A DNA stretch of 64,000 bases from Alligator mississippiensis (taxonomy: Eukaryota; Chordata; Crocodylia; Alligatoridae), in NCBI RefSeq assembly GCF_030867095.1, contig NC_081828.1, positions 2,371,001-2,435,000 of the forward strand. The letters are read 5' to 3'. The translations under genes and the position numbers were made by a program. A model generated the notes under the pieces. That model was not told where the DNA came from and made no database searches. It saw only the letters and a list, made by a program, of their open reading frames with translations. Positions within the stretch are counted from its first letter, which is position 1. Each line of letters begins with the position of its first letter. This document shows, in pieces, positions 746-62,128 of this stretch.

Positions 746-2206
746 CAAGAAACAGGTTGGGAAGTGGGTGGATGTCTAAATGCAAAAGTCTATTTATTCT
801 CTCAGATAAAAAGCCACAGCCTTTATCTGTGGATTTTTCACCTGGGACTAGACCATCGTTCTCTCTCAGGTTTGTATATAGCCTTTATCACCGTGATCGG
901 TTTTTTCACCAAGTAGGGGAGGATCCAGGAGGGATGCACTTGCATCCTGCTTTGATTCCTGCTCCACCCAAGTTTTAAAACCAACTGCCTGGCCGTGGCA
1001 GCAGCATTTCTAGTCCAGCTTTAATGAGAGAGTCAACTTCAACTGGCTTCATGGCTCATTATCATCTCCCCGATTCCTTAACAACCATCTCTTCTTTCTT
1101 AATTGTCATTTTTTAATGGTCTTAATGTTCCACCAATCAAGCTAACTTTTGTCCTGCAATTCTGCTGTCTGTTTGCTGCTCCTGGTAATAGAGCTCCTAT
1201 TTCACAGCCCTGCAGATTGTTTCTAAACAATTTCAATTAAGTTATATTTGTCTTTCCTTCAATGTTAAACTGAGTAATCCAGCCCTGGGCCCCTAGCATA
1301 TTAGCAGAGCTTCTAGTGCATTTTTAACTGTAGAAAAATGTGCTATGTTATATATGATGAGGCACCTCCCCATCTGCACCTCCCTTTTCAAAATCCTAGA
1401 TCCACCCATGTCTCTGAGGCAATGGTCCTCAACCTTTTTTAAACTGGAGACACCGCTCGTTGGACACAAGATCCCCCTCTGAAAATGCCAGCTCTGAACT
1501 TTCACTTGCTTTTTGCCTACAGAAAAATATTAGAGTAATGCTTTTGTGGCAAAGGACTCAGAAAGACCACAAAGTGTGTAGAGGACTCCAGATCCCTATT
1601 TGAAATCTCTGGGTTTCTCTTGTGAACCATGTTTGCACATGTACTAGTGTTAACACTGCGAGGCGCCTCACGGCACCCTTGAAAGGATCTCCAGGCACCC
1701 CGGGGTGCCTTGAGCATCACTGCTGTGGCAAAATCCCCCCACTTGCAGTACAGTGGCAGGGAGCTCTGTGGGACTGGCTGATTTCCCCTGTTGTGGGAAA
1801 TGCATGTTTCCACTCTTCTGCCAGAGAGGAGGCAAGAGGACTCTGGGGAAAGAGACTGCTCTTCTCCTTTGGCAAGGTAAGCAGCCAAAACCTGGGCCAG
1901 ATACCATGGGGCGCTGAGCACCCTGTCTGCTGTGGGCTGCAGGGAATGCAAAGGATGCACCTTGCAGAGCTGGGCCAGTCTGTGAGCAAAAGGGCCCCAT
2001 CCTGTCCTCACAGTCACAGCAGAACAAGTGCCCTGAGTGTCCCAGGTAACTGAGAGCAGAGTATGACCCAGCAGCAGGGGTCTGGCTGGAAGCAGGATAG
2101 TTAGGCTCCTCCTGTGAGGAATAAGAGGAATTGTTTGCAGGCTGGCCTGGTAGGAAGGCTGACCTAGCCCGAGGTGTTGGGTTAGCTGGACCCCAGGCAT
2201 ATCCAG
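746..2206. other. Intergenic, no gene recognised
   Basis: Moderately AT-rich sequence (about 1000-1550) followed by more GC-rich sequence. No open frame here shows a recognisable domain, and the longest minus-strand frames look like chance openings. Nothing functional can be supported. Confidence 0.5.
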
Positions 2207-2446
2207 GGATTCATAGATTTCATAGACATTCGGGCTGGAAGGGACCTCAGAAGATCATCGAGTTCAGCCCCCTGCCCGAAGGGCAGGAAGTCAGCTGGGG
2301 TCATAGGATCCCAGCAAGATAAGCATCCAGTTTCATCTTGAAGGTGTTCAATGAAGGCACTTGAACCACCTCCAGTGGCAGGCTGTTCCAGACCTTGGGG
2401 GCTTGGACAGTAAAGAAATTCTTCCTTATGTCCAGCCAGGATGATG
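2207..2446 (-). mobile_element. CR1 LINE 3' UTR fragment
   Basis: The plus strand starts with a TTCATAGATTTCATAGA-type terminus, followed by GGCTGGAAGGGACCTCAGA and a CAGCCCCCTGCC block. This is the complement of the conserved CR1 3' end, so the element lies on the minus strand. It is 5'-truncated, as most CR1 copies are. Confidence 0.88.
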
Positions 2447-4599
2447 TTGCTAGATCAGGGGACCCTTTTTGTCCTTGGCAAGGGCTGAGGGATTAGCATC
2501 CATGAGGCAAAAGAGCCTTGGAGCACCAGAGGAGACATCAGTGCAGCTGTCTGTGCCATGGTGAAAGGAGCCTGGGAGGCCCCTTCCGGAGAGATGGAGG
2601 GAAAGAGGAGGCAAGAAGTGGAGGAAATCAGCACCGGCCACTTTTACCCGGGGAGTTGATCCTGAGGTTCCCCTGCTAAGCTCAGAGACTGAGGGAGATG
2701 GTGGGTGCTAGCCCCAACACTAGAGAGCCAATGGGCCAGCTGCTCATGCCAGCAGGCAGAGAACAGCAGCCGGCGCGGGTGAAATAGAAAGCTGAAGATC
2801 ATTCAGTGCCATTTCCCGTGCAACCCAGAGGGGACTACCAGGCAGAGACCACCCAGGGACGCCAACTTCCTCCACCAACCCACAACCAGGTGAGTGAGCC
2901 CCTTTGGTCCCTGAAGCACCAACCAGCCCAATCCCCCTCCCAGCTCTCCCAGACTACCTTCCATGGGGCCCTCGCCTGGTAAGCTAAATGCCAGGCTCCC
3001 ATGGGCAGATGTGCTTGCGGTGGGGATGACTTCATCATCCCAACAAATGCACTTACTTTGGGAAGCCAACCAGCACTTGATGGACTGACAATTAAATACA
3101 GGGATGCTGCTGGGTGCAGACTTGGCTCTTGCCGGAGAAGAGATGATCTCTCCCCTCCCAAGAGCAAATGCTAATAGCGGATGGAGATCCAGACGGTTAC
3201 TCAGCAGCAGGAGAGAGCAGGCTGCTGGCTCGACCATGGCTGGCTCCCAGTGATGTAGAGTTCAGGACAAAGGGGCCCTCCAGTGTTACCGGCTTGGGCC
3301 CGCCTCCTTAATGCTCACTCCGGTTAATTAGAAATGCTAAACCAACATGGGAATCATTTTGCAAGCCTAAAAGAGCATGAATAAATTATAGGGGAGCTGC
3401 GAGTAAACAGACCATTCGCATTAGCTTTTCATAATGGGTCCTGCCCTGACTCCATAGACTTGAACAAGCTCCAGGTTTGGTGTGGTGGAAAATCAGAGTC
3501 AGGGCTGGGCCCAAGTTCTGCTGTGGCCATATAACCAGCTGCAGCACAGCTGTTTCCCCCCCGGGAGGATGGAAATGTTAGCTCCAGTGACAAAAGTTCC
3601 TGAGATTTATTGGCTCCCGGTCCCTTTTTATCAGCCTGGGGTCCTGGGGCACCCATGGTCTCGGGCAGAGAGATTGGCCCTTGGAAGGCACCCGGTCTCA
3701 GCTAACTTGCTCAAGTCCTTTACCTGATGAATGAGCAACAACGCCCATAAGCTCAGGGAATCCCAGTGCCTGAATCCAGTTCAAGATGCAGCGTAGCCCC
3801 GATGGGAACCCAGGAACTGGAACAAAGCGTGTCCTCAGTGTCTCTTTATGAATGTCTGCAATCTCCAAATCCAGCAACTCGTCTCAGCCTCCGAGCTTGG
3901 AGGCCTTCGATAAAGCAGGGCTGCAAGTTTGATAGAGGCTGATTCACGTGGAAAGTGAGAGTGCTCCCTCTCCATCCATGCCATCTTCCTGTCACCTGTG
4001 TAGCGCTGTGGAAATGCTCTCTGCTTCACCGGGGCCGAAGTTCAATGCAAAGAACTAAGACACAAGTCTTTTTATTTTTTAATAACATTTCGTTTCCCGG
4101 CCAAAACCATTCCGTATTAAGCCCCAGGTTCAAGCCTGTGCAGTGCTACCACCAGCAAGTCTCCTCCCCCCAGAGTCTTCAGTCCAGGGCATCAGATTTT
4201 CCCAAATCCATAGTAGGTATCCTATGTGCAAGCCCCAAGCTCAGAGGCCTTGGAGCTCAGATGCTCCCTCATCTCATTTGCCCCAAGCCAAAAGACTGAA
4301 GGGGAAAGTCCAAGAGCAATCCCCCATCACCATAACTTGTGTAGCCAAGATCCTGCCATTGGGAGGCATTTGTAGACTCTGGCTGGGGTCAGCCTGCCCG
4401 CAGTGCAAGGGACGGGCCTTCACCCGCTACGACACTTGGGTCATTCAAGGCCAAGACGATGGTATCTCCTCTTCTGCCCACCCAGCCGTAGGCAAACTGC
4501 GGTGTCCTTTCCTCAGAGGAGGGCTGGGGTAGGATACCATTTCCCAGGAAACCCAGGCTTCCCCAGGAAACCTCCCCCTTTGTCCTTTGGAGCTGGCAC
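2447..4599. other. Intergenic, no gene recognised
   Basis: Mixed-composition unique-looking DNA. Several frames of 60-140 codons exist on both strands, but none has a domain, a splice-consistent exon pattern or similarity I recognise. It may hold conserved noncoding DNA, which cannot be judged from one sequence. Confidence 0.45.
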
Positions 4600-5250
4600 C
4601 CTGCATGAAAATCTAGAAGGATTAACAAATGTTAAGTATCTGCGGAGCCACCATCACAGAAGACTTAACATCTGGAAAGGAAGTCAAGACCAGAAGAGCC
4701 ATTGCCACCATCCAACTAACAAAGCTGAAAGAAATCTGGACAAGCAGCAATATGAAGATGCAGTTACATCTGCTGCGTGCTGTGGCCATCTCGATGATGC
4801 TTTATGGCTGTGAGGCTCGGACGCTTAATAAGAAGAGAGAGAACAGAATTGAGGCATTTGAAATGTGCCACTTTAGGAGACGGCTGTGCATCCCGTACGC
4901 TGAGCACCGGACCAAGGAGTCTGTCAAGCAGCAAATCGGTCAAGACACTGGAACCGGTGTTGGAGGTTGTGCAACGAAGGAAGCTGCAATGGTTGGGACA
5001 CGTCACGAGAAGGCCGGGGACCCTTGCCAGCACCATCATGCAGGGCACAGGGGAGGAAAAGAGAAAGAGATGGACCCAAGAAGAGCTGGGAACCAATATC
5101 AAGGACTGGATGGGACTGGGACTGGCAGAGTGCACAAAGCTAGCCGAGCACAGGGCAGAGTGGAGGAGGGTTGATACAACATCCAAAGTGCCCCAACAGT
5201 CCCAGCGGCCTCGGGACTGACTGGACCCTGCGTGAACACATCACTCGCCA
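4600..5250 (+). mobile_element. RTE/BovB-like LINE, C-terminal end
   Basis: The plus-strand translation contains the hallmark C-terminal LINE signature: a block of LLRAVAISMMLYGCEART, then an EAFEMCHFRRRL block, then RRKLQWLGHVTRRPG and a basic, Trp-rich end (KRKRWTQEELG). This order is typical of RTE-clade endonuclease-reverse transcriptase proteins such as BovB. The two halves are in different frames, with the shift at about 4930-4945, so the copy is dead. The clade call is from remembered motifs and could be another non-LTR clade. Confidence 0.72.
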
Positions 5251-6284
5251 AAATAAACTAAAATATGAACCGGGGGGAAACGGGGATCCTTGCAACACAA
5301 GCCTGTTCTGGTGACTATCGTGATGATTCTCCCCTTGCTTTGACCTTTTCACCCAAGCATCTCTTTGTGCATTTTGCAAGCACTAATTAAGCTACAAACA
5401 TCCCTCTGGGAGGGCGAATCCTGTCATCTCAGATAGGCAGACTAGAAGGCCTTTCGAGGTGAGAGATTAAACCAGCTCAGCCTATTTAGTTGATTTAGGA
5501 GAAGGCGAAAAGATCTGTTGGGGCCAGGGGGGAAGAAAGCTGCTGAGAGTAGAGGGCTGGTTAACGTAGGAGACCAAGCGCCGACGTCTGAAAACTAGAC
5601 AAAGTCACCAGTAAGGAGTTGGGCCTCATGCTGCAGGGGTTATTAATAACTATCCTTCTTCACCTGAAGACTCCAGATCAAGAGTGGGTATTTCTTGGCT
5701 GCTTTCCCTGATGCTCTTCAAACCAGCACAGGAATTCCCAGCACACACAAGCCAAGGCTTTGCTGTTGTAGTGCAATGGGCGCAGGGCTTGGCCGTATAG
5801 AAGAGCTGTTGTGCGTGGATAATGTGCTGGTCCTGCGCTCTGCCCCACAAACTATTAGCACCCAGACGAAGTTGTGGGTGCTTGTCCAGATGGATGATTA
5901 ACTGAAACGAGTCCAAAGCATTCGGAAGACCCAAACACGCCTATCAGGCCCTGCTTAGTGGGATTTTTCTGTGGCAGCCAACGGCATTAAAATATCTAGG
6001 AATTCTAATCCCCGGAGGCTTAAAGCAAATAGTTAAAATCAACTTCAATCCAATTATCGCACAAATCACTAATGGCCTGGGGAAAGGGGAAACCAGCACC
6101 CTTGGCCTGTGGGGGAAATAAGCCTGGTATAAGATGAACACGCCACCCAGATTAATACGTGAGCTCAGGGGACTTGCCACGTTCATTGAAGTGGGGGGGA
6201 TCAATGATCTCTTTTTAAAAAAGGAATGTATTGGGAACCCAGGAACATCCTCTGCAACTTTAAGAGATTGCAAGTATTGAAGCT
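5251..6284. other. Intergenic, no gene recognised
   Basis: No exon-like structure or recognised repeat found. Short frames only. Confidence 0.4.
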
Positions 6285-6880
6285 CTGGGCTGTGCCAATG
6301 CTCCTGCTGGGACCGACCCCGCAGGGTCCCGGCTGGGGGGTCTTGCCCCTCCACTATAATGACTGATCGCTGTATTTGGGGTCAGGAAGGAATTTTATCC
6401 CCTGGTCAGATTGGTATGGACTGAGCAGGTTTTCCTTCCTCTGTAATAGTGAGTATGGCTCTCCTCCTTAAATCTCTCAAGTACATCTTAATAAACCTGC
6501 AAGGGTCTTTGGTTAGATGTGATATCTTTTATTACACCAACTGAGTCTAATAAAAGATATCTCGTCTGACCAAAGACCCTTGCCTGCCTATGTCCTTAGA
6601 CCAACACGGCCACAACCAAAAACTCAGCATCTTAATAAACCTCGCGGTGGCAGGACACTGAGAGCCGGCATCCCCCTGCTTGACCCGGGGGAAGTTTGGC
6701 TGCTTTTGGGCAACATGCCTTGCGGTTGCGCGAGAGGGTTGATTGTGCTGTTTTAGAAATAGGTTAAGCAAGGACTTGCATGGGATGGCTTAGACAGGGT
6801 TGATCCTGCCTGAGGCAGGGGTTGGACTAGATGTGACCTTCAGAGGCCCCTTCCAGCCCCACTTCTCTAGGGTTGTATGA
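6285..6880 (+). mobile_element. CR1-like 3' end, copy A, interrupted by a younger insertion
   Basis: Positions 6290-6470 align by eye with 8365-8550: both carry CTCCTGCTGGGAC, GGGGTCAGGAAGGA and a CAGATTGGTA...CTTCCTCTGTAAT block. Positions 6775-6875 align with 8690-8790 and carry the GGGGTTGGACTAGATGTGACC tail typical of CR1-family 3' UTRs. The two homologous parts are split here by the 129-bp insertion annotated at 6499-6627. The internal part (about 6640-6775) is diverged. Confidence 0.65.
6484..6642. mobile_element. 129-bp retroposed insertion with 15-bp target-site duplication and 35-bp hairpin
   Basis: CATCTTAATAAACCT occurs exactly at 6484-6498 and again at 6628-6642, bracketing a 129-bp insert (6499-6627). 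This is a classic target-site duplication of LINE-mediated retroposition. The insert opens with a 35-bp inverted repeat (arms 6500-6534 and 6548-6582, about three mismatches, 13-nt spacer). It then ends in a TGTCCTTAGACCAACACGGC-type tail that resembles the 3' end of a sauropsid SINE family. The element itself is short and 5'-truncated or rearranged. Confidence 0.75.
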
Positions 6881-8139
6881 TCTGCTAAACCAGCGGGCTT
6901 TGATGCCCAAATCTGTGGCAATAATGCCATGCTTGTGCCATAAAGCAGTGGACATCAACGCTGTCACAACCAAAACACCTGCATGGACATGCATGATGAA
7001 GGGGAGGTCCCACCTCTGGCCACGCACAGCTGGATTGGTCCCTGGGTGCTGTAAAGGCTCTAGGGTTGCCCACAGCTGCCATAGCCAAGTGCCTCTGTTC
7101 CCACTTTCATACCTGCCATGCCTTGATCTTAGTTTATATGGAAATATAAATTTGGAGGCTGCCTTCGGAGAGATAACCGGAGTTAGGCCTTTGGTGTCCA
7201 CTCCACACTGCTCATCATCAGGTGCCAGTCTTCTCATCCTTACACCCTCTCATGTCCTCGGGCTCAGGTCTTTTCCCTCTCAGTCCTTCTGGGGCTACAG
7301 GCCCCTTCGTGGTCTCCTTCTGTCCCTGACAGCCACAACCCACTCCTCTGGTGTGACAACAGAAAAAAAGCACAAAACTCAAATTATTTAGCTACTGTCC
7401 TGCATCATAGTTTGATGTCCACCGGTCCTGGCTGTGCTGAGCATCTTTCCTCTGGCTAGCAAGGATCAGAATGAGACCTTCTCAGGGGGTCTGGTCCTAT
7501 AAGGACATCAGTTGTCATCTGATGAGCCTGTGCTCTGTTGTAGCTGTTATTCCCCACCTGAGGCCTTGCAGCCTCTGAGCACTGAAATCCCATCGCATCT
7601 TGCACACCTGGGACAGAGCGGCTGCTCCTCTCCGAGTTTGTGTGTTCCCAGCTGCCTCTGTTGCATCTTAGGGCCTGCCCAAAGGTTTCTAATTCCCTTC
7701 CCCTCAGTAATGGGGAAGGGGCCCCGTTGCAATGCTCAAGCTGCTCAAAACATCCCGCCCCCCCACGCCCCATGGCCCAGATGTGGACCTGTATGGCCCG
7801 TTGACTGGTACTCTCCACCCTTCTTCTCATGCAGATGCTTCAACCTGGAGGAATGGCATGCTAGAAGCTGGGAGAGGAGATGCTAATGGGGGAGAAATGG
7901 CATCTCTCTATATCCCAACCCAACTCATAAATGAGTGCCAGACCCCACTGGTTACTTCTCTCCAACTTGCAACTCTCAGTAGGTTGTACTGAAAATAGCA
8001 GCATGTTCAAGTCCATGCATCTCCGCTCCCCCAAGTTCAGCATGCAAGCTCCAGGAGTCCTTGGATCTTGTAGGGTGTGCTATTCCCCATCCCAGCACCT
8101 ACATCCATTGGGCAGGTCCCTACTGACCCAGAGAGAGGA
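6881..8139. other. Intergenic, no gene recognised
   Basis: No coding structure supported. Frames of 60-172 codons are scattered on both strands without recognisable domains. Confidence 0.4.
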
Positions 8140-8790
8140 TACAGCTGGGATCAGGCATCACTGGAGGTGTTCAAGAGGCTGGATAGCCACTGGTTGGGGA
8201 GGATTTAGGCATAACTCTGCCTTTGTTCTACTATGGGGATCTCCAGGCTTCTGGGTTTTGCTGGTTGCCCCCTTCCCCTCTTTCTGCTACATACATCAGG
8301 GTGTTTTTAAGCCTTGCTCAGAGGTGCTGGGTGCTAGCTGCCGCCCAGGCTGGGGATGGGACTGGGCTTGGCCAGTGCTCCTGCTGGGACTCAACCCCAG
8401 AGGATCCTGGCTAGAGCGCCTTGCCCCTGTGCTCAGGGTTAGACTGACACCGTATCTGGGGTCAGGAAGGACTTCTACCCCCTAGTCAGATTGGTACAGA
8501 CTGGGGGGTGCGGGTTGCCTTCCTCTGTAATGGGGGCACGGCCTCTGCCCGGGATCTATTATTAACAACCTTTTACAGCAGCAGGATTTTGGCCACTGCT
8601 GTCCCCCTACTTTCCCCTGCTTTCGGGTGTGATGTCTCGTGTCAGGGTTGGCAGCAATTTTGCTAAGAGGTTACATTATGGATTTGTATAGGATGGTTTG
8701 GACAGGGCTGATCCTGTCTCAGGCAGGGGTTGGACTAGATGTGACCCATGGAGGTCCTTTCCAGCCTCAATTCCCTATGATGTCCATGAA
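8140..8790 (+). mobile_element. CR1-like 3' end, copy B
   Basis: GAGGTGTTCAAGAGGCTGGA near 8165 is the CR1 3' UTR motif in plus orientation. The block 8365-8550 matches copy A at 6290-6470, and 8690-8790 carries the GGACTAGATGTGACC tail. This copy lacks the hairpin insertion, so it gives the empty-site reference for copy A. Confidence 0.75.
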
Positions 8791-21428: not shown

Positions 21429-24294
21429 TGCATGCAATATATAGATATATATAGATACATATACATGAGAATGGTTCAGGACAGGCAGCAGCAGTTCATT
21501 GATTTCTGAGAAGCTTGGCTCTCACACACACAGCTGTACTTTAACTCTGATGACAGCCCTAGGATTTGGTAGATAGATAGAATCGCTTGCTTGTTTGCAT
21601 TGCTTCTTTTCTGTTAGCACAGTGTATCAATAAATCTGCCTATTATCAAATGGAAAGGTCACGGTCAGTCTGAGGGTGTTTCCTCACCCAGAACAAGGAA
21701 TCTGGATCCTAAATCCAGAGCCAACGGGCTGCACACACAGTTACTAACACAGCCCTCCTGTGAGGAGCCGGTCTTATCAGTCCGGGGGATGAGCAGGCAG
21801 GTGATACCTCCCAGATGGACCTTCTTAGGGAAGGTAATGACCTTCTTCACTCCTCTTCCAGACATAGGCTGGGTGCAGTTAGTGGGCAAACAGGACCAGG
21901 ACCAGGCTGCAGCGGGGTCAAAGCTGCCTGTGCCACCAGCACAGAGGAGCTGGCTGCAGCAGGAGGGGGTGGGCAGGAGGGTCTTCCCAGCCAGGGTATC
22001 CCAAAGAGGCCACTTCCCAGTCCTAATTCCCTGCAGACATCCCCCCTGCTCCGTCATGCCAGGGTCCGTGTGCATCTCCCATTGCATTCCCCACTTTCAG
22101 GGGCAGAGCTGGCATGGCAGGTCCAAAGCACCCCCAAGGTCCCCAGAGCCACGTGCCCAACAGTGAAGCTCTCCCCAGCCATGGACCGCTCCACCTCCTT
22201 GCCCTGCAGAGGAGCCTGCCCTGTAAGAAGCAGCACAGCCCACCTCCTCCGGCCCCTACCCTGCCTGCTTCTCAGGCTCTCCCCACCTGGAGCAGGCTCT
22301 GAGCAGCAGCTGTTCCTAAGTGTCTGCTTGCTCAAAGCTGGGAGGTAATTAGGCCCTTCATTAACCTTTTCTGGGCTGCATCCTCTATTGGTCCCTGCTG
22401 CCTCTCTTCTCTCCTCGTGCCACTTTCTCCCTTCCAAGAGCTCCCATCCCTTTCTCCCCCCCACCAGGGGTACCCCATGAATCCTGGTATCCCCTGTGCC
22501 AGGACTCCTGCATCCCCCCCTGTTCCCCCTTCCCTGCACCACGACACCCGGTGCCAGGGTCTCTGTGCGACACCCTTGCCATTCCAGGGGTGCAGCATAA
22601 GGCCCTCCGCGAAGCTGGGGGTGATTGTGGGGCTGAGAGGCTCTAATAGCCACCATCACTTGCTTCCTTGATCTGCAGACAACCCCAGGTGCAGCTGAAG
22701 CTGCTGAGTGCTCTGCCCAAGCACCAGAGGGGTTGCAAGTCCCCATTTCTGTTTCCCCAACAATTTTCACATATTTCATCCATCCAAAGCCGGCCACACT
22801 CCCCCCATTTGGCTGAGAAACAGTTTCCAGAGCCACTTGGCTTGATGAGGCTCCGGGCACCCCGGGACAGACTCCCCACATACCCCAGCACCTAACACAG
22901 GTCACAACGGCACTAGTGTAAACGCAGCAAAATCCTGCTTCTGGGACTTTTACAAGGCACTGGGCAGATTCTGTGCCTGTAACGATGCACCATCTAGGAG
23001 TTTTTCTACTCAACACAAGCAAAGGCCTTGAATCTCTTGGGCTCAGCTTCTCCAAGGTACTTCGGTACCTGATACTCCTGGGATCCTCCCTGAGGGTCAC
23101 GGACCCACTTGCCTTTGGAGATCTGTGACCCTGAGCTTCATTTTCCCCATGGATAAGAAGGAAATGCCACGCGCATGCCCTGCCCTTCACAAAGAGAAGG
23201 TCAAACACCAGCGATGCCTCCCCTTCAGAGTCAAGGCCAAGGTCCAGCACAGCTGGAAGGCTTCGATGAGCTCATTTCTGGGACCAGGCTTGCAGGAAGG
23301 CACGTCAGGGAGGAGTCCGGCCCAGGGGCTCAGTGCCGGCGGTCAGGACAGAGGGGCCCCAACAAGGTTATCCGCTAACTCATCATGAGCTATCGTCTCA
23401 TTGCCATCATTTATCTCCTTGACCTGGACTGCATTTCAGGAGGGCAAAAGCCAAGATAAACACCAGCAGCTGGTGGCCAGCTGGTCTTGCAGCCGTCCCA
23501 GCTCTCCAACCCCCGTGTTGACCCCCCTTGGCTCTGCCTCCTGCTTTGCAAATGGTTTCAGTCCCGGTCTCCGCTCCGTTGTCCTCCGGCCTCCTTCGCT
23601 CTCCCTCTGCCAGGCAGCTGCTGCATGAGGTTCCTGCCTGGCCTCGATGCCTCCTGCCCAGCAGACAGGGGTGCTGAGCTGCTGACGGGAGCATGCTGCA
23701 CCCCGCCGCCTCGGAGGTCATTGCTTCCCCCCCACCTTGTGCTCAGCGCTCAGCTGGCGGCAGGGGTTGGTCCTCAGGCCCAGCCAGCATGGTGCTGAGA
23801 GAGATGCTGCTCCATACCCACGCCAAGCAGAGACCAGAAGCCAACGGCAGCTAGCATCCTTGCTGCCCCGTGCCCCTATCCCCTGGGTTTGGAGGCAGCC
23901 CTTCCCCCGAGACCAGGGTTGGAGAGGGCAGCTGGCAGGGGTTGCCTTCTGGGGTAAGCGCCCACCAGCCAGGACCCAACGTCCATGCCAGGGCTTCATG
24001 GAGGGCACAGTCGAACACGGCCACGCCGCCCAGGGGTAAGCTCAGGGGACCCCTATGGGCTGCCCCAAAAGGGTCGAATCCCGGAGCCAAGCAGGGCCCT
24101 TCACCTCGGCCATCTTCCCCCACACGCCTGGCCGGAGCGTGCACCCCACGAGCCCGGGGCCTCCGTAACCATCCTGAGCAGGGTCACTTCGCAGCACTTT
24201 ATTTGCACCCTCGTTCTTCGCCCTGGCGTGGCCTGCCTGGCCGTGGCTTGGTGAGGACGTGGGTGCCACCTTGCGGCGACTTGCCACCACTGCC
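19591..24294. other. Intergenic, no gene recognised
   Basis: Contains the TA microsatellite at 21389. The minus-strand frame of 398 codons (22054-23250) shows no domain and is treated as chance in GC-rich DNA. The low end abuts the SELENOP2 poly(A) signal. Confidence 0.45.
21389..21426. repeat. (TA)19 microsatellite
   Basis: Uninterrupted TA units followed by degenerate ATAGATATATATAGATACAT sequence to about 21465. Confidence 0.97.
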
Positions 24295-24300
24295 TTTATT
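24295..24300 (-). terminator. Poly(A) signal of SELENOP2
   Basis: TTTATT on the plus strand is AATAAA on the minus strand, about 590 nt after the SELENOP2 stop codon and 280 nt past the candidate SECIS core. A second AATAAA lies about 100 nt further down (24198-24203). Confidence 0.6.
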
Positions 24301-24544: not shown

Positions 24545-24650
24545 CTCCTGCACCCTTGGCCCTGCTTTTCCACACAGCATCTGTCCACGGCGACCGGGGA
24601 TGAACCCGGGTTGCACCACAGGCTTCATTGAGCGCAGAAAAGGCCCGAGT
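24545..24650 (-). promoter_or_regulatory. Candidate SECIS element in SELENOP2 3' UTR
   Basis: Minus strand, about 260 nt after the stop codon. The 5' core ATGA is at 24628-24625. Twelve nucleotides follow, then the apical AA at 24612-24611, and the 3' core AGAT is at 24582-24579. The 12-nt helix pairs largely through G-C and G-U pairs with two mismatches. Flanking helix I pairs a GGCCTTTTC block with a GAAAAG...GGCC block. The spacing fits the eukaryotic SECIS rule (quartet, 10-13 nt, AA). An SBP2-bound SECIS is required to read UGA as selenocysteine. The fold was drawn by hand, not computed. Confidence 0.6.
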
Positions 24651-24887: not shown

Positions 24888-27711
24888 CTAATGCACTCCC
24901 CGCTCCTCGTCCTGCGCGGCTGGCGCCTGGTGCTTGTGCCCCTCGTGATGGTGGCTGTGAACAGGGGCAGCCTTGCCATGCAGGACCGAGGCCTTCTCGC
25001 TGCCATCAGCTTCGTGGTGGGGTGTGGGGTGGATGCCGTGCCCGTGGGTGGACGGCTCCTCTTCCTTCTCCTGTTCGGGGGCCAGGCTTGGATTCACCTG
25101 ACCTTCTGCTGTGCCGTTCGCCTGGGAAGGGAACGTCAGAGGTTGGAGGCGATGCACAGACACGTACCCTGCCTTGGAAGGAGCCCGTCAGCGTCCTCGC
25201 AGGTGCAGTCGGAGCAGCGTCGTACACCCCAACCTGCTGAAGCTGGGGGGAGAATCCTCTCCACCGTGGCGAGTAGGTTAGGGCCAAAAGGACCATGGTC
25301 CCTTGTACTGCGCCACATGATAGCAATGCATGGCAGGGCATGCTGCGGCTTACCTCTTGCTGGGTGCTGTTGGAGTAGTGGATGCAATTCCCGCAGTAAT
25401 CCTTGGTGTACGTGAAGTGCACGGCGGACTCCACGTAGGGGAAGTGCAGGAAGCTGTAGGGCAGCGAGATGTGGAAGACCAAGCGGCCGCACCTGCAAAG
25501 CGAAGCGAGAGGCATCTCAGCGAGCCCCTGCCATGCAGCGACAGGTAGCAGCAACCACGCTTCATGCACAGCTTGCCCTCCACAGATCTCCCCAGCCTTT
25601 ACAAAGCAGGATAGCCTCGTGTGTAAACTGATAGTAAACCCATTGTAGGAGAGGGGGAGACTGAGGCACGGAGAGGTCAAACGAGCTCACTAAAGTTGCC
25701 CGGCAGGTTAGTGGCAGAGTCAGGAACAGAAACCACCTCCCCCTGCTGCAGTCCAGGGTCTTATCCATTAAGGCCCTATTGGGTTAGGCATTGTAATGAC
25801 TCTTCACTGAGTCTCTCCCACTTTGTTCCCTAACACCAGATCTATTTTACCTCCCAGACCAGAGACTTTACTCCTGAGAAACCCCCTGCCTCTCCTCCCC
25901 ACCGAGACCCATGCATGGTGCGCCAACTTAAAAGTAAGGCCTGGCTGCTCCACGATAAGGTACAAGGGGCGTGCATGTCTGTGCACCCATGCCGTACTGC
26001 CCTCAAGAGCGAGACCTACCCATGGGCTTGTGACGACATCGCTCTCGAGTAGTTACAAGCCAAAGACCAGAACAAAAACCAGAGAGAGGCAGAGCTAGTT
26101 AGTCCATGCAGACCCAGAGGTATTATTTCTGGTTCAGGAGAGAGCCAGGCTTACCTTCAAGCAGCACCATGCTAGCGCTGTCTCTCGGCAGAGCTAAATA
26201 GCCTGCCCGCGGCACCACAATCAGGTGGTTTCACTAGCCAGAACGGGCCTAAATCCCGCCAGGTTCTGAAGATACCTAGCGGGTCGTGAACCAGGACCAT
26301 GCTCTGGATTTTGGTACCCTAAAATTGGGTGCTTCTCCCAGAGCTACAGGGTAAGACTGAAGCTTGGTGAGGTGCAACCAGAGTCGTTGCACAGCAAGGG
26401 GATCCCGGGAAGCACTTGTGCGTCACCGCCTTGGTTTGTGCTGGCTTTGCACTGCGCGTGCAACTGAGATGGGGGGGAAAAAAGGGAAGGAAAGCACAGG
26501 CCAGGTCCAAAAACACACGCCTGTGGGGTCTGTAGGAAGGTTCTCTGGGACCCTCGAAGCCCGTGCCCTTCCTGGCAGCTCAGCCCCCTCCCCGAGGCCT
26601 CTCGGCTTGCGTTGCCCCAGCTCCGTCCCAGCAGGTCGCTGACTGTGCTGTGTGCTTATTCGCAGCCCCCTCTCCTCCGTGGGCAAAGTTCAAGGGCCCG
26701 TGGAGCAAACGATAGCAGCGGATTAGGAAAACAACTGCAGTCCGTGAGGGTTACACAATGCAGGGACTGAGCCAGGCAGGGGGCACGTGCCACCCGCAGA
26801 AGGAAGGGGGCAACAAGAGGGTTGGAAGGGACCTCAGTGCAACCCCCTGCTCCACGCCAACTAGACCATCCCGCGTCACAGCAAAGCACGGCAGAGCTGA
26901 AAAGGACCCCAACCACTTCCAGACTATAAACTAGGCTTGGGTCAGGCAGACAACCTGGGAGCCCCCATTCCTGGCTTGGAGCCACAGCTGCATGGCTGCC
27001 CCTTGCCCGGACCGGTGTGGCAGGCACTGAATTACAAGCCTCTTTGGAGGGACGAGGCTGACCCCCGAAGCCCAGCCGTTGGCTACGCGTCACTAATTCA
27101 AGACTCCTGGAGGGATCGGAGAGCACAAGACCACAGCAGTGCCCTGGAAGAGCTCGCAGCCCCGACGCCAGGCACTCACTTGTCGTAGATGAGGAAGTCG
27201 TCCTTATCCCCATCCAGGATCTGCCAGACGTCGGGGTCCAGGATCCCCTGCTGGTACACGGGCACCCCCTCGGGGGCCTGGCGCTTCAGCTCCCAGTACA
27301 TGGCCCGGGACAGCGGCGCCTTCTCGTTCACGATCATGTAGCTGACGTTGGCCATCCCTTGCCGGGACAGCTTCTCGCGCAAGCCGCCAAGGCTGGGAGG
27401 AGCGAAGAGCCGGGATGAGGAGACGGGATGCTGCTGCAGCAGAGCGGCTGGCTTCAGCCCCCGGCCGGCTCTTCCCCGCGCCCCCCAGCCCCACGGGAGC
27501 CCCAAGCCCACCTGTTAGCTTGCTTGAGACAGAACTGTCAGCTGGCCTTCAAAAGCGCCACCACCGTCACCTGCCCCAGCGCCTCGTCCATCGGGACCGT
27601 CCCATTGATCTTCCACAGCGGAGCTGGCTGGCAGATGCGGTCGGTGACTTCCGCCAGCACGGTGGCCACCAGCCCCAGGAGAGCGGCCACGGCCAGGGAC
27701 GGAGGCCCCAT
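24888..27711 (-). CDS. SELENOP2: Selenoprotein P2 (selenoprotein Pb), complete, Sec-containing
   Basis: Four coding exons on the minus strand: 27711-27512, 27392-27180, 25492-25354 and 25121-24888. All junctions are GT-AG and phases agree, giving 261 aa. Residues 1-20 are a signal peptide, so the product should be secreted. A thioredoxin-like domain follows. Its redox site is U58-Q-F-C61, where U is an in-frame TGA at 27540-27538. Family blocks are clear: VTVVALLKAS before the Sec, VPVYQQ, KDDFLIYDKCGRLV and YCGNC. Four N-glycosylation sequons are visible. The last exon is acidic, then His-rich (13 His) and ends at TAG. It has none of the Sec-rich C-terminal tail of SELENOP1, so it probably acts as a redox enzyme rather than as a bulk selenium carrier. 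A non-coding 5' exon may exist upstream. Selenoprotein P2 is known from fish, birds and other non-placental vertebrates. Confidence 0.93.
25640..25790 (-). mobile_element. MIR-type SINE fossil
   Basis: In SELENOP2 intron 2. The plus strand reads GAGACTGAGGCACGGAGAGG, a GTTAGTGGCAGAGTCAGGA block and CTTATCCATTAAGGC. This is the complement of the MIR core (splicing-independent tRNA-derived SINE), so the copy lies on the minus strand. It is strongly diverged. Confidence 0.7.
26815..26882 (-). mobile_element. CR1 LINE 3' end, short
   Basis: AGGGTTGGAAGGGACCTCAG followed by CAACCCCCTGCTCCA, the complement of the CR1 tail, inside SELENOP2 intron 2. Confidence 0.75.
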
Positions 27712-31148: not shown

Positions 31149-32339
31149 ATGGCTGCATCTGTGAGCCGCCTGTGCCACGTCGCCTTCCACGTGCCCCGTG
31201 GGCAGGGCCTGGCCAGTGACCTGGTGACCAAGTTTCGCTTCCGCCCCGTGGCCGTGCGGGAGACGGCGCGCGCCCGGCAGCTGGCTGTCTGCAAAGGCGC
31301 TGCCGTCTTCGTCGTCAACGAAAGGCGGGAGGCAGCCCCGTGCTCTGGTCCCACGTGGCCGTCGCCGGGCCCTGGAGCCAGCGACTTCCTGTACGACGTG
31401 GACCCCGCGTATGCCGTGAGCACGGCCTGCAACGTGTGCTTCGAGCTGGAGGACATCCCCGGCGTCTCCCGGCGCCTCCAGGACCGGGGATGCCGCCTGG
31501 CCGTGCCGCCCACCGAGGTGACGGACGCCGACGGCTCTGTCACCTACTCCGTGGTGCGGTCCATCGTGGGCAACGTCAGCCACACCCTGCTGGACCGCTC
31601 CCGATACCGAGGACCCTTCTTGCCCGGCTTCCACGCCGTGACCGCTGCCCCCGAGGGGCCGCCGGATGGGGCCGAGATCACCCACGTGGACCACATCACG
31701 TACGCCTGCCCCCGGGGCAGCGCACGCACCGTGCTGGACTGGTACGAGAGCTGCTTCGGCTTCCGGCGCTTCCTCCTGCACGGGGCCGAGGATGCAGGCG
31801 AGGGCTACGTGATCCGGGGTCGGGGCGTGGGGCTGCGGCTCATGGCCCTGCAGGGTGGCCGAGCTGAGCGGGCCCGGCCCACGGACGGCTGCAAGCTGGT
31901 GCTGGCCGAGTCCCTGCCGGAGCAGGGGCAAAACCAGGTGGACACCTTCTTGGAGCAGCACGGCGGGGCCGGCGTCCAGCACATCGGGCTCTACACCACG
32001 GACATCGTTTCCACGGCCCAAACCCTGGCAGCGGCCGGCGTGCAGTTTGTGGAGCCACCCCGCACCTACTACAGCGAGGCGGGTAAGACGGAAGAGATCC
32101 AGGGGGCTGGACAGGACCCCGGGGCGCTGGCACGGCACGGCATCCTGCTGGACGCGGAGCTGGCTGGGGAGAGCCCTTCGGCGAGGAGGTACTTGATGCA
32201 GATCTTCACCAAGCCTTTCTTCCCCGAGGAGACCTTCTTCCTGGAGCTCATCGAGCGCCGGGGGGCCTCGGGCTTCGGGGAGGGCAACATCCGGGCCCTG
32301 TGGAAGTCTGTACAGGGCTACATGGACCGGCAGCGCTAG
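31149..32339 (+). CDS. HPDL: 4-hydroxyphenylpyruvate dioxygenase-like protein, complete
   Basis: Single-exon frame of 396 aa, as in mammals, where HPDL is also intronless and about 371 aa. It starts at an ATG in a strong GCGGCATGG context. Two VOC (glyoxalase/dioxygenase) modules are present. The three iron ligands expected of the family are visible: His182 (THVDHITYAC), His278 (GVQHIGLYT) and Glu366 (FFLELIER). Family blocks include YRGPFLPGF, GILLD, TKPFFPEETFF and FGEGNIRALW. The protein is mitochondrial in mammals, works in conversion of 4-hydroxymandelate toward a coenzyme Q headgroup precursor, and its loss causes a neurological disorder; that is family knowledge. The 25-residue length excess lies mostly in a loop near residues 60-80 and around residues 220 and 340. 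Confidence 0.96.
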   Translation: MAASVSRLCHVAFHVPRGQGLASDLVTKFRFRPVAVRETARARQLAVCKGAAVFVVNERREAAPCSGPTWPSPGPGASDFLYDVDPAYAVSTACNVCFELEDIPGVSRRLQDRGCRLAVPPTEVTDADGSVTYSVVRSIVGNVSHTLLDRSRYRGPFLPGFHAVTAAPEGPPDGAEITHVDHITYACPRGSARTVLDWYESCFGFRRFLLHGAEDAGEGYVIRGRGVGLRLMALQGGRAERARPTDGCKLVLAESLPEQGQNQVDTFLEQHGGAGVQHIGLYTTDIVSTAQTLAAAGVQFVEPPRTYYSEAGKTEEIQGAGQDPGALARHGILLDAELAGESPSARRYLMQIFTKPFFPEETFFLELIERRGASGFGEGNIRALWKSVQGYMDRQR

Positions 32340-43034: not shown

Positions 43035-46000
43035 ATGCCCGGCTGGCGGGTGCCGGTGGTGGACGTGCAGAACGACAACTTCAAGGAGCTGTGGTCCTCC
43101 ATGCTGCTGGCCGTGCGCACCTCCAGCTTCGTGGCCGTGGACACGGTGAGCCGCCCCCCCCCCCCTTTCCTCCTTCCCCCTCCCCCCGGCGCGCTGCGGG
43201 GAGAAGCAGCCCACCTTCCTCTCGGCACGAGGCCGGCTAACCCCGTCTGCCGTCCCCGCAGGAGCTGAGCGGCCTCGGGACGAGGAAGAGCCTGCTGAAC
43301 CAGTGAGTGGGGTCGTCCTCCCCCGTTTTCACGCGGCCTCTCGAGGCTCGCGTCTCGGTGCCGGTGTGGTTTCCTCGCCCCCGTGTGCCGACCGACCGGG
43401 GCTCGTCCTGGGACTGTCCCAGGCGGAGGGAGAGGGAGGTGGGAGCACGCTTGAGGCAGGGACGGGAGATGAAGCCGCGGCGTTTCTCGCCCCTCCCCCC
43501 CCCCCCCCCCGCGCGCGTGCGGCAGCGACGGCTCACGTCCCCGCCTCGCCCAGGTGCATCGAGGAGCGATACAAGGCCGTGTGCAACGCCGCCAAGACGC
43601 GCTCTGTCCTCTCGCTGGGCATCGCCTGCTTCAAGCAGCTCCCGGACAAGGTAGGTCGGGGCCGGGCCGCGCCAGACGCTGCCGCTGCCTCCGTGGCGTC
43701 CTGGGGAAGCGCGTGCCGGAGGGCTCCATGAAGGAGCTGAACGCTCCCGTTGAGGGAAACCAGCGTCAGGCCCCGTTGAAATGGGGGGGGGCTCCGTAGC
43801 CAGGCTGACTCGTTGCCGCCCGTCCTCGCAGTCGGAGAACACCTACCTGTCGCAGATCTACAACCTGACGCTGCTGTGCATGGAGGACTACGTCATCGAG
43901 CCGCAGTCGGTGCAGTTCCTGGTGCAGCACGGCTTTGACTTCAACAAGCAATACTCGCAGGGCATCCCTTACCACAAGGGCAACGACAAGGTACTGGTGC
44001 CCTGCGGGGTGGGGGGGGGCTCCTCTCCTCTCTTCTCCTCTCCTCGGCCCCCGTCGCAGTGTCGTAACTGGCAGGAGACCCGCTTCGAGGGTGAGGTTAC
44101 GTCCCCAGCACCTGCGGAGGGCTGGGGGGAGCCTGCTTCAAGCAGGTCCAGGAAGCCCCAGCCATCATGAGGCCAATGTACGGGGGGGGGGGGGCTTGAA
44201 TTAGGGGCTGGTTGGTGGGTCTGTGCCTGCTTGGGACAGGTAAGGCCAGGATCCTGACTGCAGCATGGCCCCCCGCTGCCCTGTGCTGGGGGAATCACTC
44301 CCACCCCCTGGGACAGACGCCAGTGAGGTTTCTTAGGCCCCTGCTACACGATTCATATGTGACACAATTAACTGGTGAATCGCAGAGTCAATTTAGACCG
44401 GCCTCACGGACAGAGCAATCGTCACGCCACGAAAAGGACAGTGCAGCTCTAAAGAGAGCTAACCTGCTGCAAAACTAGCGGTTGCAAATGTGCAACACCA
44501 CTATAGCTAGTTCCAAGCTGGCTTGAATTTGAATGTGTATCCAGGCTCCTCCCGGGGATGGGGCTCCGCACGGCCAGGAGTAGCATGGGGCTAATCGGCA
44601 CTCCCGTTCCCAGGGCAATGAGAACCAGAGTCAGAGCGTGCGGTCCTTCTTTCTGGAGCTGATCCGGGCCAAGAAACCCCTGATCCTGCACAACGGGCTC
44701 ATCGACCTGGTGTTCCTGTACCAGTGCTTCTACGCCCACCTCCCCGACAGCCTGGGCACCTTCACCGCCGACCTCTCGGAGATGTTCCCAGCCGGCATCT
44801 ATGACACCAAGTATGCCTCCGAGTTCGAGACCCGCTTCGTGGCCTCCTACCTGGAGTACGCCTACAAGAAGTGGTACGTGGAGCCCTGGGACAGAGTGCT
44901 TGGTGTCCTTCTGTACCTTCTGGGTCTCCATCGAGAGCGTTCGGGCCCCAGCTTTGGGTAACGTGTTAGCCCCGATGCATGCAGCTTGGGCAGGAAACGG
45001 GCAGCGGGAAGGTGGAGGTTTTAGCTGGGCCCGTCCATCCCCAAGACTTCCAGGGAAGGGGTAGGGGAGCTCCACATGTAAGTGCAGTGCTTCCATCACA
45101 GTGATGCACCAGGCACAGCTATGGTCTGTCCCCCAGTTCAGAGCCTGACTGACCGCTTCCCAAGCAATGGGGATGTGCTGCTGCCCAGGTAGCCTGCACT
45201 CCTGCAGGCAGGAGGTGGAAGCAGCCTGGTCCACCTCTTGCCCTCTCCAGACCGTTCTGGCTGCAGCAGGAGCAGGGCCCTAGAACAGGCAACCTGCAGC
45301 AGGCAGCCCCCCGAGCTCCCCCAGGAAGAGAGTCGTGGCTCTGCACCTGTCTGAGGAGCCCCGTGCTCCCCGACTGCAACCAGCGGGTGCTTTGAGATGG
45401 GGGAAGCCCTCTGTGAACAGGCAGGGCTGGCTTCAGCACTTGCAGACCCGACTCGCTGTTCCCCTGCAGTCTCTGTCTCACAGGCTTGACTGAGCAGGGC
45501 AGGACCACCATGCCTCCCTGCCCAGCCCAGCCCTCATCTGAGGTTTTTCCCTGGCATTCCTTTCCAAGGGGGTCTCCCGCCCCGGGCCCAGTCACCTGCT
45601 GACATACGGCTCCCTTGCATCGTCCCTGGCTGGCACCAGGCTGGACCTGCCCTGCCTTGGAAGCTTTGCCCAACACCCCCAGCCTTCTTGGTCAAGCCAT
45701 ACCTGGGCAGGACACTCCCTCAGGACCCTTCACTGGGTACGAGAAGCAGGAGCTGTTGAATATTCACCCTGGTGACAGATTTGACTGCTAAGAGGTGGCT
45801 TCTCCCTGGAGACCTTCCCAAGCCTGGGCTGAACTTCTGAGAAGCGGAGATGGTCTCCAGGTGAAGCGTTTCCCCTCCCTGCCCCAGTAAGGCCCAGGGA
45901 GCTCAGCCACGAGCCTCACTGCGCTTCTGTGTGTTCCAGCAAGCGGGAGAACATCAAGCTGAAGGACTCGAGCAGCCAGCACCTCACGGTGGAGTTCTGC

Positions 46001-47391
46001 AGCTACCCCACCAGCATGGCCCACTACATTGACTACCGATACTGCTCCTTGGAGGACAGCAACCACAGCGCAGCCCAGGCCAGCAAGGTCCCCGTCTGCG
46101 AGACCTTCTCGGTGAGTCGTGCGACCGTCTCTTGCTGCAGGTCTGAGGACAAGGCCCAGGGAAGGCAGACAGGGAGCTCTGGTCACCTGGTCTCATGCCT
46201 CAGGAACAGTCCTTGCAGTTGAGAAACTTTCAGAGCTGGAGTGGAAACAAGCAGCCCAGAACGAGCCTGTGCCCAGGGGGGCGGACTGCTGGGAGGGGTG
46301 GCCCACCCTGGATGCCAGGACCACCCATATCCACACGCAGACACTGTGTATCCCTGCACTGTGAGGAATACACACTGCCCGGGCCAGGCTCTGGACAGGG
46401 AGAGTTGACCTGGGACAGGCTCTGCAAGAGGTCCCCCAGCCCCTGCTGCTAGCTGACCAGCATCATTTGCTGTCTGGCTTGCAGAGCTGTAAACTGACTC
46501 CCTGGAGTCACAGCTTTGCTCAATCTCAGGTGATTAGTGAGGCTCTACGGGCCTCCTGGCTGCCCCTCAGCCCTAAGAGGAGGGTTGGAGTCAGGCTGCA
46601 ACCGTAGGGGAACAGGAGGTTCTTCCTGCTCCTAAAGGCTGTGCTAATGTCTCCGCTTTCCCTCCTGCCAGGCCTATGGGTGGTGCCCCAATGGGATGAA
46701 GTGCTCCCAGTCCCACAACATCGACCTCATCATCGATGAGGACGAGCGGCTCCGGGCCGAGAAGCGGAAGAAGCGGAAGCAGAGGTGGAAGCGGCGCAAG
46801 AATGCGGAGGAGGCCGCCAAGGCGCCTGAGCAGCCAGAGGCAGCAGAGGAGGCCCACAAGGGGGAGGACGGGCCCCCGCGGAAGCAGGGCAGAGCAGGGT
46901 CAGATCCTGTGGGGAAGGCATCCAGCAAGGAGGCAGAGAGCACCGTGGATTGGACCGCAGATGTCGGGGTGGACGACTTTGGGAGTCCCATGGAGCAGGA
47001 GCGTACCACGCAACCAACCGCCGGAGGGAGCGCCTGCCACGACGAGCAAGGGGAGAGCGCAGCGGAGCCAGGCGCCTTGCCACCCCAAGACTGCTCCCTG
47101 GACACTGCTGCTGGCTCCCCTGGTGGGAAGCCTCCGGAGGCCGAGGCCTCACCCGCGTATGGGGGCATTCACCGCGCTGGCTTCGACGCCTTCATGACTG
47201 GCTACATCATGGCCTATGTCTGGATGCTCAAGAAAGGGACAGCTGGTGAGTCAGGGCCGTGGCTGCCGGACTGTCACAACAAGCTGTACCTCAGCGGGAA
47301 GTCGGTGCCGCTGCAGATCGTGAAGAGCTTGTTCTCCAAGTCCTCCAAAGCTCACTGCCAGAAGATGAAGCTGGCCTGGGCCAGTGGCTAG
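43035..47391 (+). CDS. TOE1: TOE1 3'-exonuclease (target of EGR1), complete
   Basis: A nuclear/Cajal-body DEDD-family 3'-5' exonuclease that trims oligo(A) and 3' tails of snRNAs. Seven exons: 43035-43145, 43262-43302, 43554-43650, 43832-43990, 44614-44873, 45940-46111 and 46672-47391. All are GT-AG with agreeing phases, and encode 519 aa (human 510). The CAF1-type nuclease domain begins at residue 5. The metal-binding D36-x-E38 is split by intron 1 (FVAVDT/ELSGLG), and further acidic residues lie in HNGLID (D167) and IYDTKY (D200). A CCCH zinc finger is exact: C276-x8-C285-x5-C291-x3-H295. It is followed by a strongly basic nuclear localisation signal (about 308-323). The C-terminal block [14 protein letters not shown]...GPWLP is conserved. 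The gene is driven from the promoter shared with MUTYH. Confidence 0.97.
44333..44556. mobile_element. Possible MITE in TOE1 intron 4
   Basis: The left edge AGGCCCCTGCTACACGATTC and the reverse complement of the right edge (AGGAGCCTGGATACACATTC) are similar over about 24 bp. The sequence between is AT-richer than the surrounding GC-rich intron. Weak, diverged inverted repeats only. Confidence 0.4.

Positions 47392-53094: not shown

Positions 53095-62128
<9,034 letters not shown>

Follow-up and report, generated by a model that had tools for sequence, protein, structure and literature searches.

SELENOP2, also called SelPb, is a vertebrate member of the selenoprotein P family. The excerpts of the literature available to us report SelPb from fish, birds, frogs, platypus and opossum, its single selenocysteine (Sec) being replaced by cysteine in Xenopus (PMC2397514), and from fish, birds, platypus and marsupials, with a loss before the placentals (PMC3316567). 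Reptiles also have SelPb according to the available part of PMC5133445, which describes an mRNA with one UGA and a single type-2 SECIS. The same excerpt states that introns are common to SelP and SelPb and that a distance of 26 nt from the first UGA to the intron is highly conserved in SELENOP. In the accessible sections of PMC6301783 the first coding exon of SelPb encodes the UxxC, and salmonid SelPb genes contain 1 to 4 Sec, and SELENOP2 mRNA has been reported from turkey liver (PMC5708738, likewise an excerpt). A literature search for reptile SELENOP2 yielded no paper naming SELENOP2 or SelPb among the matches listed.

We have analysed a window of 64,000 nt of Alligator mississippiensis DNA, the whole stretch to which positions refer unless another locus is named. 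As judged from its sequence, the gene described here is almost certainly vertebrate SELENOP2 (SelPb), and the UGA at codon 58 would be decoded as Sec via one SECIS in the 3' UTR. The features of the gene are the following:

27512..27711, minus strand: coding exon 1 of SELENOP2, translated with TGA as U; on its own matched by SelP_N at E = 8.1e-13 over residues 25-66, spanning the TGA; GT donor
27538..27540, minus strand: in-frame TGA, predicted codon of Sec58, with 26 nt between it and the exon end; aligned with codon 59 of SELENOP1
27180..27392, minus strand: coding exon 2, thioredoxin-like domain; AG/GT borders; on its own matched by SelP_N at E = 4.4e-26
25354..25492, minus strand: coding exon 3, Cys-containing block CGRLVFH...CGNC; AG/GT borders; matched by SelP_N at G000:C5:2396342-2396494 when the genome was searched
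24888..25121, minus strand: coding exon 4, His-rich tail; TAG stop at 24890-24888; no further in-frame TGA
24565..24642, minus strand: SECIS candidate, type-II-like; ATGA at 24628-24625, AA at 24612-24611, mini-helix, AGAT at 24582-24579, flanking helix I
24295..24300, minus strand: first poly(A) signal AATAAA 3' of the stop; a second one lies at 24203

Translation from the ATG at 27711 gives ...VVALLKAS-U-QFCLKQAN, up to a GT donor after 27512. The first-pass annotation had put a TGA at 27540-27538 within VVALLKAS-U-QFC and had let the frame run on past it to a GT donor; the coordinates are correct, the codon being number 58 on the minus strand, and the donor is in place. Three further exons had been said to join exon 1, and we found canonical GT/AG borders at all junctions as well as the terminal TAG. 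The joined exons 27711-27512, 27392-27180, 25492-25354 and 25121-24888 encode 261 aa with one in-frame TGA, so that both the earlier 261-aa model and its residues 55-66 around the TGA agree with our re-derived frame. A single combination of borders, among those tried, satisfied the GT/AG rule, and it is the same one that yields the 261-aa reading. Downstream of the TGA the exons are open, without a second in-frame stop. Exon 1 encodes a hydrophobic N-terminus, which by eye is likely a signal peptide, followed by the beginning of the thioredoxin-like domain and the UxxC site.

Membership in the selenoprotein P family is carried by the Pfam model SelP_N (PF04592), which matches the joined protein over residues 25-249 with 258.1 bits, well above the curated cut-off of 23.2. 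With an E value of 8.6e-77 over the joined protein, the reading is far from chance. The model had no match in any of 14 control prokaryote genomes. In six-frame translation the 2.35-Gb genome has six stretches that match SelP_N, three of them here (exons 1, 2 and 3) and three at one paralogue. Of the three further exons, all said in the first-pass annotation to encode selenoprotein P blocks, exon 2 is recognised by itself; exons 3 and 4 gave no SelP_N match when scanned separately, but the match of the joined protein extends to residue 249. Searched against the PDB, the SELENOP2 protein gave no relative (two rows, E 0.55 and 1.2), and neither did a scan of viral contigs. In NCBIfam the protein had a weak match to the 'TUGYCR motif thioredoxin fold (seleno)protein' (redoxin_TUGYCR; E 0.0006, 19.7 bits, cut-off 100). 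This (seleno)protein domain comes from a prokaryotic library, and the below-cut-off match might reflect a distant link to SELENOP2.

The paralogue at the second SelP_N place (G000:C3:274306474-274309422) is SELENOP1 (SelPa), the plasma selenium carrier. It spans 1906-8105 on the plus strand of the retrieved locus and encodes 395 aa; of its 15 in-frame TGAs, 14 fall at residues 289-392. The first SELENOP1 TGA, codon 59, aligns with Sec58 inside the UxxC (VTVVALLQASUHLC compared with VTVVALLKASUQFC). Before the TGA, at residues 25-57, 17 of 33 aligned residues are identical between the paralogues. After it the identity amounts to 4/8 in the rest of exon 1, 34/71 in exon 2, 20/46 in exon 3 and 17/56 in exon 4, and BLASTP reports 50% identity over 116 aa for the part beyond the TGA. 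Downstream of the TGA, 125 aligned codons differ at 54 first, 42 second and 82 third positions, a pattern that indicates a protein under constraint. In both genes the TGA lies 26 nt from the exon end, and the phases of the exon junctions agree. The two genes thus have in common SelP_N, the aligned TGA, the 26-nt spacing, the intron phases and a His-rich region. However, SELENOP1 has a Sec-rich tail and two SECIS places in addition to its greater length and its 15 Sec codons, whereas SELENOP2 combines 261 aa and one Sec with one SECIS match.

Selenocysteine insertion in eukaryotes would also call for a SECIS element, and a candidate lies about 260 nt 3' of the stop and ahead of the first AATAAA (24300). 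A crude SECIS scan of the 2887 nt after the stop gave 11 rows, with the candidate best by energy. In a stricter scan of the same 2887 nt, written after the candidate had been seen in the crude scan, it was the sole match. Its helix II comprises 11 positions with 5 Watson-Crick and 4 G-U pairs, the apical AA is followed by a CCGGG/CCCGG mini-helix as read by eye, and helix I is paired at 9 of 10 positions when small offsets are permitted. Applied to both strands of the whole window, the stricter scan found four matches, of which this candidate alone has a helix I of at least 7. The mean number of matches in 60 randomised windows was 2.27 overall, 0.53 with helix I of at least 7 and 0.13 with at least 8. 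We also made 3000 dinucleotide shuffles from the 597-nt 3' UTR: 19 of them contained any match and 6 a match with helix I of at least 6, and none reached 9. As a positive control we scanned the 3' UTR of SELENOP1, which has matches at 8454 and 9154 of its locus (three rows, two places). Their helix I is paired at just 5-6 of 10 positions; hence a strong helix I is no general mark of SECIS elements. The free energy of the stretch is uninformative, as it folds no better than shuffled sequence (z -0.41; 62 of 200 shuffles fold equally well or better).

The Rfam SECIS models gave no match, whether the window, the region of the gene or just the 131 bases at the candidate (E up to 10) were searched. 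With SECIS_1 the first SELENOP1 element reaches 27.2 bits, below the cut-off of 35, and the second SELENOP1 element is not listed. We therefore do not take the missing Rfam match as absence of a SECIS, and SECIS_1 looks insensitive here. Genome-wide, Rfam found at least three SECIS matches, two of them over cut-off, a lower bound because 150 of 40559 first-look candidates were scored; SELENOP1 and SELENOP2 are absent among the matches listed. The one SECIS of the 3' UTR is thus a single pattern-scan match, a candidate that goes unrecognised by Rfam. Its type-II-like form agrees with the type-2 SECIS given for SelPb in the excerpt of PMC5133445.

The genome also encodes the decoding machinery. 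The Rfam model of tRNA-Sec has 16 listed matches, two of which reach the cut-off; these two are separated by about 9 kb and oppositely oriented. Since this model matched in 14 of 14 control genomes (above cut-off in 5), ARAGORN was used as a second program on eight loci. It identified the two above-cut-off loci as tRNA-Sec (anticodon TCA) and each of the remaining six as tRNA-Ser. The two tRNA-Sec(TCA) genes, at G000:C2:135923216 and 135932141, have equal scores. SepSecS exons are represented by six matches over cut-off at one place on C2, two of which contain a TAG within the matched stretch; the SepSecS model matched in 3 of 14 control genomes.

Compared by published descriptions, no difference between known SelPb and the alligator gene was seen. 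Within the excerpts cited above, both have the UxxC Sec in the first coding exon with the intron right after the UGA, and both encode a short His-rich protein that lacks a Sec-rich tail and is accompanied by one type-2 SECIS, here a candidate. The alligator protein contains one U in 261 aa, within UQFC at the N-terminal site, and the 26 nt from the first-exon UxxC codon to a nearby intron recur in SELENOP1. The single Sec is not universal in SelPb, given the 1 to 4 of salmonids in the sections of that source.

The claim of the first-pass annotation, a selenocysteine codon in SELENOP2, can be upheld on five grounds. Family homology to SelP_N lies on both sides of the TGA, SELENOP1 has a TGA at the aligned codon with conserved sequence behind it, a SECIS-like hairpin is a candidate in the 3' UTR despite its non-recognition by Rfam, the genome has tRNA-Sec(TCA) and SepSecS, and the available descriptions of published SelPb give exactly such a gene form. 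Two other explanations were considered. The TGA might be a true stop, as it reads in the standard code, which would leave a pseudogene or a 57-aa peptide with the downstream exons as relics; the lack of a SECIS by Rfam would fit this. However, the exons behind the TGA are open with canonical borders and no other in-frame stop, they are conserved both by SelP_N and in the SELENOP1 alignment, the corresponding SELENOP1 codon is likewise TGA, and the 3' UTR contains a SECIS candidate. We therefore rejected a true stop, which is extremely improbable.

The frog gene suggests another origin of the TGA, namely an assembly error or a recent mutation of a Cys codon in a gene that is otherwise a Cys form, since Xenopus SelPb has Cys for Sec in the excerpt of PMC2397514. 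Such a gene could do without a SECIS, but the 3' UTR has a candidate, and the TGA of SELENOP1 stands at the same place. On these two points a Cys-to-stop error was rejected as well, and we consider it exceedingly unlikely.

If the codon-58 UGA is read as Sec, insertion most likely follows the usual eukaryotic mechanism, in which Sec-tRNA is brought to the UGA by SECIS-binding protein and the Sec elongation factor. In SELENOP2 the one SECIS hairpin of the 3' UTR would recruit Sec decoding, and tRNA-Sec would decode the single UGA at codon 58. The predicted product is a secreted, His-rich protein of thioredoxin fold that carries a redox UxxC site and lacks a Sec-rich tail. The gene structure, the homology, the TGA of the paralogue, the SECIS candidate and the presence of tRNA-Sec and SepSecS are seen in the sequence; from these we infer that SELENOP2 is expressed and spliced as modelled and that its product contains Sec, is secreted and has a redox function. 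The UGA might in addition serve as a selenium-sensitive switch between the full selenoprotein and a secreted N-terminal fragment of 57 residues, and the exon-junction complex might influence which of the two is made. A role of the exon junction has already been raised for SELENOP1 in the available part of PMC5133445. With the UGA 26 nt before the exon junction, the sequence is compatible with such a switch, which we nevertheless hold to be very unlikely.

The neighbours adjoin the 5' side of SELENOP2, to the right in the window. A single-exon ORF of 396 aa at 31149-32339 (plus strand) is HPD-like, with 4-hydroxyphenylpyruvate dioxygenase as top PDB match (E 7.9e-38), and is probably HPDL. At 43056-47373 (plus strand) four stretches match the CAF1 family of ribonucleases, two over the Pfam cut-off, in a gene that is presumably TOE1; a PDB search with one of its exons gave nothing at E 0.001. 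HPDL and TOE1 are located at human 1p34. Going by these neighbours, the locus may correspond to the region of human chromosome 1 without SelPb, which the excerpt of PMC6301783 gives as 'CH1' only. Coding-like stretches at 53179-55983 (minus strand), two of them without a Pfam match, resemble, we assume, the tail of a TESK2-type kinase, and a PDB search with 55813-55983 gave nothing at E 0.01. Broken LINE reverse-transcriptase fragments (RVT_1), which we take to be CR1-like, lie at 57029-57619 (minus strand).

Taken as a whole, this is an ordinary member of SELENOP2 in which nothing unusual was seen, and both the gene and its biology are already known. A recoded stop was found here from raw sequence with its expected parts present: the UGA, a SECIS candidate, the intron spacing and the paralogue. 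The practical value lies in annotation, where a pipeline without handling of Sec could end SELENOP2 at the wrong place.
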